63,460 nucleotides of DNA, from NCBI GenBank assembly GCA_015231305.1, contig JADGBW010000006.1, positions 1 through 63,460 of the forward strand, given 5' to 3'. This stretch comes from Magnetococcales bacterium (lineage in GTDB: Bacteria; Pseudomonadota; Magnetococcia; Magnetococcales; JADFYX01). Below are positions 52,842 through 62,291 of this stretch, one piece after another; the first letter of the stretch is position 1; the number at the start of each line of letters is the position of its first letter. A program made the position numbers and the translations under genes. The notes under the pieces are model-generated. The model made no database searches. It was not told the DNA's origin and saw nothing but the letters and a program-made list of their open reading frames with translations.

Positions 52842-53267
52842 TATTCTCTATTTCCAAGTAAAAGGAAGCAATAAGACAGTTAAGCCATAAGTTCCCATAA
52901 AAATTACAATTAACCAATACACTTCAGATTACACTTTCTAACCTAAAATTGGCAAGAGTTTCAATCTTTTTTTGTGACGTTTACTACCCTGCAAGGTATT
53001 TATAGCAATACTCCGCCAATACTAATTATAACTCAAACAGTTAATAAACAGTATTTTCACAACAATTTGATTTAGATTAATGATCCTAAAAACGGCAGTT
53101 GGAAGTGCGTGCATAGTGTAATCTATAGATTTATCTGGTGTATAAGGGGAAATCGCGGTTACCTTATTGGTGATAAGACTTTCCCCTGATATGCTAGGTG
53201 AATCAAAAGGTTGCGCTAGGTGCGTGCTTACAACTGCCGTTTCTAGGATGATAGTTTTCAGATTTAA
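52842..53267. other. Intergenic region between accA and dnaE, containing MITE copy 1
   Basis: 426 bases. The first part (to about 53080) is AT rich and holds the accA promoter, with no recognised site. The rest is a repeated element (see separate entry), which ends about 16 bases after the dnaE stop. Confidence 0.7.
53085..53247. mobile_element. MITE-like element, copy 1 (163 bp)
   Basis: The element begins CCTAAAAACGGCAGTT and ends AACTGCCGTTTCTAGG, so the ends are inverted repeats. It is flanked by a 5-base direct repeat ATGAT (53080-53084 and 53248-53252), as expected from insertion. It has no coding capacity. The whole length folds back on itself: the arms pair for about 65 positions with no bulges, many pairs being G-U, around a central hairpin of CTTAT/ATAAG with loop TGGTG. 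It is about 84 percent identical to copy 2 (60957). CCTA ends with 5-base duplications resemble IS1380-family ends; that link is from memory. Confidence 0.85.
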
Positions 53268-59830: not shown

Positions 59831-60946
59831 TCACATAACGCTAAGCATTCGATCCAACGCCTTTTTGGCAGAAATAGCCACAGCTGAAGGAACCGTAATT
59901 GGGTTAACAACATGCCCTGCTACCAAGTTTTCTAGGGTCCAACACAAATGCTGGGTATCAATACGAAACATAGTTGAACACATGCAAATTGTAGGGCAAA
60001 GAAAATGTATCTCTTTATCTGGCATCTCATGCTTTAGGCGGTTTACCAAATTTAGCTCTGTACCTATGGCCCATTTACTACCAGAAGGAGCATTACGCAC
60101 TGCTGATTGAATCTGTTCGGTGGAACCTAAATGGTCAGCCTTCATGCAAACTTCATAGCTGGATTCTGGGTGTACAGTTATTTGAATACCAGGAATTTGC
60201 TCTCTGAATTGGTCGATATGGGCAGGTAGAAACATTTGATGTACAGAACAAAAGCCGTCCCATAAAATAACCTTAGCATCTTTTATCTGCTGAGCAGTTA
60301 AACCACCATTAGGCTCGCTTGGCTTCCAGATAACCATCTCATCAAGAGCTATCCCCATAGCAGCAGCACTGTTGCGCCCTAAATGTTGGTCTGGAAAAAA
60401 AAGTACTTTTTCCCTCTTCTCAAAAGCCCAAGCTAATACTTTTTGTGCATTTGAAGAGGTGCAAACAGTGCCCCCATGATCACCACAAAAACCTTTTAAA
60501 TCAGCCATAGAGTTGACATAAGTAACAGGAGTAACCACGCTTTCGACATCTATAACCTTACCAATTGCCTGCCATGCTATCTCAACTGAAGGGAGGTCTG
60601 CCATATCAGCCATAGAACAACCAGCTGCCATATCTGGCAAAACCGCTATTTGTTCTGGGGTGGAGAGTATATCTGCCACCTCAGCCATAAAATGGACACC
60701 ACAAAAGACAATATAACGGGCATCAGGTCTTTTGGATGCCAAACGAGATAGCTTTAGAGAGTCACCAGAATAATCTGCAAACTTATACACTTCTTCACGT
60801 TGATAGTGATGCCCCAAGATAACACATGTGTCACCAAGGGTAGTTTTTGCAGCTTGTATTCGACTTTCTAATTCAGCATCAGAAAGTTCATATAGTGGTT
60901 CTAACAATACCGGGCTGGGATCAGACATGATAATATTTGAACTCAT
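59831..60946 (-). CDS. nadA: Quinolinate synthase A
   Basis: Condenses iminoaspartate and dihydroxyacetone phosphate to quinolinate in NAD synthesis; it needs a [4Fe-4S] cluster. The 371 residues have ILGHHYQREEVYKFADYSGDS (near 43), VCTSSNAQKVLAWA (near 160) and the late cysteine region LCPTICMCSTM. The start chosen is ATG 60946; the MITE copy 2 ends only about 10 bases upstream and its inverted end gives the sequence TAGG at a ribosome-site distance. A second ATG at 60928 is possible. No nadB or nadC is adjacent. Confidence 0.96.
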   Translation of the reverse strand: MSSNIIMSDPSPVLLEPLYELSDAELESRIQAAKTTLGDTCVILGHHYQREEVYKFADYSGDSLKLSRLASKRPDARYIVFCGVHFMAEVADILSTPEQIAVLPDMAAGCSMADMADLPSVEIAWQAIGKVIDVESVVTPVTYVNSMADLKGFCGDHGGTVCTSSNAQKVLAWAFEKREKVLFFPDQHLGRNSAAAMGIALDEMVIWKPSEPNGGLTAQQIKDAKVILWDGFCSVHQMFLPAHIDQFREQIPGIQITVHPESSYEVCMKADHLGSTEQIQSAVRNAPSGSKWAIGTELNLVNRLKHEMPDKEIHFLCPTICMCSTMFRIDTQHLCWTLENLVAGHVVNPITVPSAVAISAKKALDRMLSVM

Positions 60947-60956
60947 TAAATATTAA

Positions 60957-61120
60957 CCTAGAAACTGCAGTTTAAAGAGCGTGCATAGTGTAATCTATTG
61001 ATTTTTCTGGTGTATCAGTAGAATATCGTGGTCACCTTGTTGGTGACAAGACTTTCTTCTGATATGCTAGGTGAATCAATAGGTTGCGCTAGGCGCGCGT
61101 TTACAACTGCTGTTTCCAGG
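60957..61120. mobile_element. MITE-like element, copy 2 (164 bp)
   Basis: The same element as at 53085, beginning CCTAGAAACTGCAGTTT and ending AACTGCTGTTTCCAGG. The flanking 5-base repeat is ATTAA (60952-60956) and TTTAA (61121-61125), four of five bases alike. The fold of copy 1 is kept, and some stem positions changed on both sides together (for example CTTAT/ATAAG to CTTGT/ACAAG). It lies between the divergent nadA and queG genes and so must carry, or have replaced, part of their promoters. Confidence 0.85.
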
Positions 61121-61151
61121 TTTAAGTTAACAAAATAACGGATACCCTAAA

Positions 61152-62291
61152 TTGCCCCATTCTAACAATCAAAGAGCAAAACTAAAAGAGCAGTTAAGAA
61201 GAATCGCCTTAGATGAGGGCTTTTCTCCCGTAGCTTTTGCCTCGCCACAAAAACCACCTCAAGGAGAATTTTTAACAAAATGGCTTAAAAACGGCTCCCA
61301 TGGTGATATGGAATGGATGGCAAAAAACCAGGAAAAACGCCAAGACCCTAACCTGTTAATGCCGGGGCTGGGTTCTATAATGGTGTTGGGGCTAAACTAT
61401 CGCCCCCAAGGTAATCACAGCCCATATCTTAACGACCCTGCTGCTTTGGGTGTTTCGGCTTACGCAAGAAATGTTGAATATCAGGGCTTTATTAAAAAAA
61501 AGTTAAAAAAGTTAGCACAACAGATAGAAAAACTACTAGGTCGTAGAATTGATGGCAGAATTTTTGTTGATACCGCACCAGTATTAGAAAAACCAATAGC
61601 AGCAAGTGCCGGCTTAGGTTGGCAGGGGAAAAACAGCTTATTGGTAAATCGCAATTACGGATGCTGGCTTTTTTTAGCAGAATTTTTTCTAGAACTAGAC
61701 CTACCACCAGACCCACCATCAAAAGAACACTGTGGAACCTGCAACCGCTGCCAAAAAGCCTGCCCTACAAACGCCCTAAATACCCCGTGGCAGCTAGATG
61801 CCAAAGAGTGCCTAGCCTATTTTACCATAGAATCATCAGCACCAATCCCCCACAAACACCGCAAAGCCATGGGCAACCGGGTGTTTGGGTGTGACGACTG
61901 CTTAACAATATGCCCCTGGAACCGCTTCACCCCCCAAAGTAGTGAAACAATATTCAACCCCCGCCCAATATTAAAAGCCCCCAAACTTTTAGAGTTCGCC
62001 TTTTTAGACGATGCAAAATTTCGCACCACTTTTAGCAAGTCCGCAATAAAACGCACTGGCCGTATAAAGTTTATGCGCAACCTAGCAATAGCACTAGGCA
62101 ACTGGGGCAACATTGCAGCACTGCCAGCCTTAAAACACCTATTTAACGATGAAAACCCATTAATAAGAGGCCATGCTGCGTGGGGTTTAGGGCAAATCCC
62201 CTCAGAACATGCTATAGACCTACTAAAAAAAGCAGAAAAAAATGAAGAAGATCAAACAGTTTTAGAAGAGATTTGTATTGCCTTAAGATAG
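61152..62291 (+). CDS. queG: Epoxyqueuosine reductase
   Basis: The cobalamin-dependent iron-sulfur enzyme of the last step of queuosine tRNA modification. The 379 residues have ASAGLGWQGKNSLLVNRNYG (near 153), two ferredoxin motifs (CGTCNRCQKACPTNAL and CDDCLTICPWN), and a HEAT-like carboxyl end (LKHLFNDENPLIRGHAAWGLGQ). The start is a TTG at 61152; no better start fits. The MITE copy 2 ends 31 bases upstream. It depends on cobalamin, and this window also has cob genes. Confidence 0.95.
   Translation: MPHSNNQRAKLKEQLRRIALDEGFSPVAFASPQKPPQGEFLTKWLKNGSHGDMEWMAKNQEKRQDPNLLMPGLGSIMVLGLNYRPQGNHSPYLNDPAALGVSAYARNVEYQGFIKKKLKKLAQQIEKLLGRRIDGRIFVDTAPVLEKPIAASAGLGWQGKNSLLVNRNYGCWLFLAEFFLELDLPPDPPSKEHCGTCNRCQKACPTNALNTPWQLDAKECLAYFTIESSAPIPHKHRKAMGNRVFGCDDCLTICPWNRFTPQSSETIFNPRPILKAPKLLEFAFLDDAKFRTTFSKSAIKRTGRIKFMRNLAIALGNWGNIAALPALKHLFNDENPLIRGHAAWGLGQIPSEHAIDLLKKAEKNEEDQTVLEEICIALR

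Follow-up and report, generated by a model that had tools for sequence, protein, structure and literature searches.

The analysis of the window, that is, the whole stretch of 63,460 nucleotides from a Magnetococcales bacterium, led to the identification of a new MITE family with an unusually clear strand-specific structural constraint. We consider it probable that the element is moved in trans by an IS1380-like transposase and that the hairpin formed by its plus strand is under selection as RNA. Members of the family are 160-164 bp long, display the ends CCTA...TAGG with terminal inverted repeats of about 17 bp, and carry neither a transposase gene nor a coding signal; no account of this family was found in the literature. 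Comparison of the copies and of their insertion sites demonstrates, at the level of sequence, the mobility of the element, its end sequence, the target duplication and the strand-specific constraint.

Two copies lie in the window (Table 1), and the coordinates and lengths proposed for them in a preliminary description of this DNA were borne out, as were the perfect flanking repeat of copy 1 and the imperfect one of copy 2. The copies had been estimated to be about 84 percent alike, and their identity over the full length is 86%. Since copy 2 lies between divergent genes, nadA on the minus strand and queG on the plus strand, promoter sequence may be displaced or added at this site; in the window, the stretch 60928-61152 comprises the region in which the two genes are parted by the element.

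Table 1. Coordinates in the window of the two MITE copies and of their parts.
Feature	Position	Strand	Remarks
MITE copy 1	53085..53247	+	163 bp; dnaE/accA spacer, both genes on minus strand
Copy 1 left target-site duplication	53080..53084	none	ATGAT
Copy 1 right target-site duplication	53248..53252	none	ATGAT
Copy 1 left terminal inverted repeat	53085..53101	+	CCTAAAAACGGCAGTTG
Copy 1 right terminal inverted repeat	53231..53247	-	CCTAGAAACGGCAGTTG on minus strand
Copy 1 mid-stem left arm	53103..53144	+	wobble-rich zone, element positions 19-60
Copy 1 mid-stem right arm	53188..53229	+	approximate limits
Copy 1 conserved apical hairpin and loop	53158..53174	+	GTTACC-TTATT-GGTGAT; from fold and conservation
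MITE copy 2	60957..61120	+	164 bp; divergent nadA/queG intergenic region
Copy 2 left duplication	60952..60956	none	ATTAA, one mismatch to TTTAA
Copy 2 right duplication	61121..61125	none	TTTAA

The further copies anticipated in the preliminary description are numerous. With copy 1 as query, the own genome gave 67 matches; with 40 of the 114 candidates scored, these represent at least 40 separate places at E <= 1e-31, which excludes chance; this genome comprises 3.96 Mb in 238 contigs and is 83% complete, MAG assemblies tend to break at repeats, and the copy numbers are lower bounds. With the same DNA query, each of the four same-genus genomes tested was found to contain copies, as were two genomes of other families (G015 and G009), and none appeared in 34 other order-mates. 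A covariance model search of 399 genomes of the phylum gave matches in 30, including 17 of family f18, which is assigned to the Zetaproteobacteria through a single member (G116), because its match position is that on the zetaproteobacterial contig QIFG01000048.1 (SZUA-181). The family thereby spans Magnetococcales and the iron-oxidizing Zetaproteobacteria. Plasmid and phage collections contained no match to the element.

As shown by the flanks, the element transposes with a 5-bp target duplication, as had been proposed from the two copies of the window. Exact duplications flank 59 of 92 copies, while permutation of the right flanks gave a mean of 11.4 and a maximum of 21; they are A/T-rich, with TTTAA, TTAAA and ATTAT as the commonest, and they also occur in 24 of 47 zetaproteobacterial and 4 of 14 f7 copies. 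In a relative (G004) the site of copy 2 is empty, has the expected length and contains a single TTTAA. G001 and G004 lack copy 1, and their spacer is too diverged for the junction to be read. Most copies are intergenic, with a few in-frame cases, and convergent gaps are favored over divergent ones (23:9, p = 0.02), the latter being the rarest location (9 of 76 copies with both neighbors called). No significant orientation preference relative to neighboring genes was observed (27 versus 17 co-directional, p = 0.17), a preference that might be expected from a function as read-through RNA.

The MITE end was sought in 48 order-mates, which led to a genome (G007) where CCTAAATTCGGCAGTTG lies 83 bp upstream of the start codon of an IS1380-like reading frame. 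Homologues of this frame are preceded by the ends CCTAAATCCTGCAGTTG in G031 and CCTAGATCCGGCAGTTG in G012, located 84 and 83 bp before the start codon, respectively. These three relics (L169, L198, and L197) carry the 17-bp end of the MITE on the 5' side of the transposase start codon, at a distance of 83-84 bp, and at a further locus (L203, in G013) the C-terminus of a transposase, whose best match is IS1380 (27.7 bits), is followed by an inverted MITE end, CTTAAATCCGGCAGTTAC on the minus strand. A homologue on a Polaromonas plasmid, with no matching end of its own, is 56% identical to the N-terminal part and continues into a second frame, which scores 55 bits against PF13701 (cut-off 34.7) and finds its best match in the NCBIfam IS1380 model (112 bits, below the cut-off of 180). 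Because three 5'-end relics and one 3'-end relic share the MITE end, the attribution to an IS1380-like transposase is well supported, and this transposase would be a divergent, putative member of the family. The preliminary guess of an IS1380-type transposase holds up, since relics with MITE ends carry an IS1380-like gene. As for a full-length IS with CCTA ends, end-sharing relics do exist, but only broken or partial ones; no intact autonomous parent was found, all parents in Magnetococcales order-mates being of this kind, and no parent transposase was detected in the own genome at its 83% completeness.

Other candidates for the parent were discarded. Standard PF13701 transposases occur in G001, G003, G004, and G015, and were rejected because their ends, where they could be read, are TA[AG]CCCGGATATT... 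and differ from the ends of the MITE. Solo end matches in G000, G002, and G015 correspond to decayed copies, contig ends and deletion derivatives of 48-57 bp, with no intact IS among them. At L097:967-2531 (G004:C205) lies a transposase gene of the IS1380 family whose matched region contains one TGA stop, and its ends, TA[AG]CCCGGATATTTCATGAA, are unlike those of the MITE.

The plus strand of the element folds far more stably than its complement. For copy 1 the predicted energies are -93.0 kcal/mol for the plus strand and -50.6 for the reverse, and for copy 2 they are -90.0 and -62.5 kcal/mol. When the arms are paired symmetrically, copy 1 has 14 G-U against 3 A-C pairs and copy 2 has 12 against 2, in agreement with the plus-strand G-U pairs first reported. 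The arms had also been described as pairing with no bulge, which was not sustained: the stem is interrupted by several 1x1 mismatches and by internal loops of 2x2 and 3x3, and near its tip it has an asymmetric internal loop that is conserved. The plus strand is the more stable in all 123 aligned copies (mean -88.7 versus -57.8 kcal/mol), the distant ones among them having been oriented by a covariance model that contains wobble pairs, an orientation supported by the conserved tip sequence. The excess of G-U over A-C cells is concentrated in the mid-stem, with 613:30 in the main Magnetococcales set, 126:6 in f7 and 389:46 in Zetaproteobacteria, against 42:17, 15:6 and 22:15, respectively, in the outer 17 pairs.

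Since these cells share ancestry, parsimony was used to locate the changes on a tree. Without strand bias, a ratio of 1:1 is expected, because a G-C or A-U pair (WC) has one transition of each kind, to G-U or to A-C. On internal branches, and with the error that parsimony carries, WC to G-U outnumbers WC to A-C by 46:11 in the mid-stem (p = 3e-6), while the counts are 12:13 in the inner stem and 16:7, not significant, in the stem ends. On terminal branches the mid-stem bias is weaker (73:42, p = 0.005; difference from internal branches, p = 0.02), so that most individual copies seem to decay. We read this as selection acting mainly in the source lineages that give rise to copies, and weakly on individual copies.

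Among 62 copies, 92.7% of the cells are paired, a share that falls to 35-43% once the partners are slid, and changes on both sides were seen at 37 pairs. Covariation was judged against a null preserving both the tree and the number of changes in each column (our own R-scape-like implementation, not R-scape). At E<0.05, 8 of 72 pairs pass in a first set; in the combined one, 13 of 69 do so (five in the ends, four in the mid-stem and four in the inner stem), and 5 of 12,651 non-structure pairs also pass. The covariation test suggested in the preliminary description thus yields an excess over a phylogeny-aware null. At least four end types surround the common interior, namely CGGCAGTTG, CTGCAAGTG, CCTCAGTTGG, and CCGACATTG. 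In type D, whose ends differ most, ends and interiors are 44-50% and 62-69% identical to the consensus of the other types, and for the remaining types the values are 61-81% and 72-75%. What the sequences show is a strand-specific wobble confined to the mid-stem, compensatory changes, and an interior that persists where the ends differ. The earlier suggestion of selection on RNA structure is upheld as a folding constraint on one strand, and we infer that RNA rather than single-stranded DNA is the molecule concerned.

For this probable reading, we propose the following mechanism. A divergent IS1380-like DDE transposase, acting in trans, would recognize the outermost 17 bp or so on either side (CCTARAWNCGGCAGTTG), and 5 bp of an A/T-rich target are duplicated upon insertion. 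For the plus strand of the conserved interior, the predicted fold is a rod of some 70 base pairs whose tip is conserved, and this strand would be transcribed by read-through or from an unrecognized promoter, the folded RNA presumably being what selection sees. Perfect long DNA palindromes are a known hazard, which cells tend to delete or cleave. Wobble pairs would allow a full RNA fold, yet leave the DNA short of a perfect 160-bp palindrome. As the bias is weaker on terminal than on internal branches, we infer that the hairpin would mainly aid the spread of the element and is not kept up for the host site by site. It may, for example, render an insertion within a transcript self-contained and tolerable, perhaps as a unit processed by a double-strand-specific RNase.

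A variant to which we give only a modest chance is that the interior is a noncoding RNA gene that spreads with the ends of different IS1380-type transposons, its RNA being conserved between Magnetococcales and Zetaproteobacteria while the ends changed, and aiding amplification or survival in trans or in cis. A better conservation of the interior than of the ends rests mainly on type D, because ends and interior are comparable in the other types. Scans of the element for internal promoters and terminators gave nothing convincing, and no Rfam family matched the window at gathering score, the only matches being sub-threshold and chance-like ones to microRNA hairpins.

It is rather unlikely that the element is an ordinary MITE, whose palindrome is kept by DNA-level processes such as transposase binding to the ends and template-switch correction, and whose strand bias was inherited by chance from one ancestor. 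Such a constraint on DNA predicts the few wobbles and the lack of significant bias seen in the outer 17 pairs, and the decay of many individual copies fits it as well. Nevertheless, the new mid-stem changes on internal branches are themselves biased toward G-U, palindrome correction in DNA would erase wobble pairs rather than keep them, and the same bias is found again in both bacterial classes and in combination with several of the end types.

The constraint might also act on a hairpin of single-stranded DNA, as in a strand-specific intermediate of transposition or transfer. G-T is better tolerated than A-C in DNA too, and with DNA parameters the plus strand is still the more stable in 120 of 123 copies; however, transposition as double-stranded DNA is what the paired ends, the 5-bp duplication and the IS1380-like DDE transposase point to, no HUH-type signature was seen, and we hold this reading to be improbable. 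Strand-asymmetric mutation, or a plus strand rich in G and T, could in principle generate the mid-stem bias without selection on folding, and the mid-stem plus strand is indeed G- and T-rich (GC skew 0.36, TA skew 0.14). In the genus set, the wobble pairs gained on internal branches arose from both A>G (18) and C>T (20), against 3 T>C and 14 G>A for A-C pairs, and uniform strand-biased mutation is disfavored because the same strand lacks a comparable excess in the inner stem and the ends; we regard this cause as scarcely probable.

Finally, it is most improbable that the minus strand is kept open as a harmless peptide tolerating in-frame insertions, as in Rickettsia palindromic elements, with wobble as a by-product of a C/A-rich minus strand: 43 of the 62 copies in the main Magnetococcales set have minus frame 1 open, element plus duplication amount to 168 bp (56 codons), and one copy lies in frame inside gluQRS, splitting the profile match, but the frame is open in only 3 of 47 zetaproteobacterial and 1 of 14 f7 copies with the same wobble bias, the usual zetaproteobacterial length of 162 breaks it, and synonymous changes are not in excess. 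Coding thus does not account for the asymmetry. The copy in gluQRS, which encodes tRNA glutamyl-Q synthetase (L032:1501-1663; G001:C411:5838-6000), is near-consensus and lengthens the gene by about 55 codons; the reading frame stays open to its left and right, and no target duplication is visible. Other copies are located close to the beginning of a glycosyltransferase frame and within a small-heat-shock-like one.

The transcripts of MITEs are commonly said to fold, and it is seldom examined whether selection maintains the fold or the inverted ends produce it as a by-product. The present family offers many copies, two bacterial classes and several end types, and the comparison of ends, mid-stem and inner stem provides an internal control that separates DNA-level from single-strand-level constraint, so that the question of whether bacterial MITEs evolve as RNAs becomes directly testable. 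The results suggest that a long RNA hairpin has been preserved by evolution inside a mobile element usually thought passive, and they connect a large MITE family of Magnetococcales and Zetaproteobacteria with a transposase of the IS1380 type.

Previous studies describe systems that resemble this one in part. ISEcp1, of the IS1380 family, has the IRL CCTAGATTCTACGT and a 5-bp duplication (PMC7864471). Its ends and those of the MITE are of the CCTA type, beginning CCTAGATTC/CCTAAATTC, and the target duplication has 5 bp in both; the MITE is, however, gene-less and its end continues as CGGCAGTTG, where ISEcp1 has TACGT, and the ordinary IS1380 copies of the genomes examined have a different end, TAACCCGGATATTTCATGAA. 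The Correia/NEMIS elements of Neisseria are likewise short MITEs whose transcript forms a stable hairpin, which is cut by RNase III (PMC10969869); they differ in having a 24-bp TIR with TA at the termini (PMC2229807) and in their hosts. In enterobacteria, the ERIC/IRU/RU-1 element is a 127-bp repeat that also folds when transcribed, and its orientation matters for the effect on mRNA (PMC2229807), but it has 7-bp ends and no IS1380 link, and no Rfam or sequence link to the present family was seen. Transcripts of both Correia/NEMIS and ERIC are processed or destabilized (PMC10969869, PMC2229807). In Coxiella, QMITE1 and QMITE2 have a very stable transcript fold and some small RNAs arose from them; QMITE2 differs by a duplication of 7-9 bp and a TIR of 23-29 bp, and the sections at hand describe no strand-specific covariation for either QMITE (PMC10969869). 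The Rickettsia palindromic elements, of about 150 bp, insert in frame in protein genes (PMC10969869), whereas copies of the present MITE are mostly intergenic and few are in frame.

Some minor observations concern matches at the margin of the family. A typical Magnetococcales-type copy (L113:78-240, JADGAW010000244.1) lies on a contig filed under a Nitrospinota MAG, which reflects either binning contamination or horizontal transfer. Weak covariance-model matches in G011, G005, and G006 (L286, L287, and L288, respectively) have unrelated ends, e.g., CGCGGAAAAAATAAATTA, and may represent either very distant relatives or long hairpins of unrelated origin. Palindromes of 48-57 bp that consist of the two ends only were observed in G000 (L130, L131, L135, L140, and L126) and G015 (L145), several of them with perfect 5-bp duplications, and at least one looks like the product of a deletion between GGTGCGTG direct repeats of both arms.
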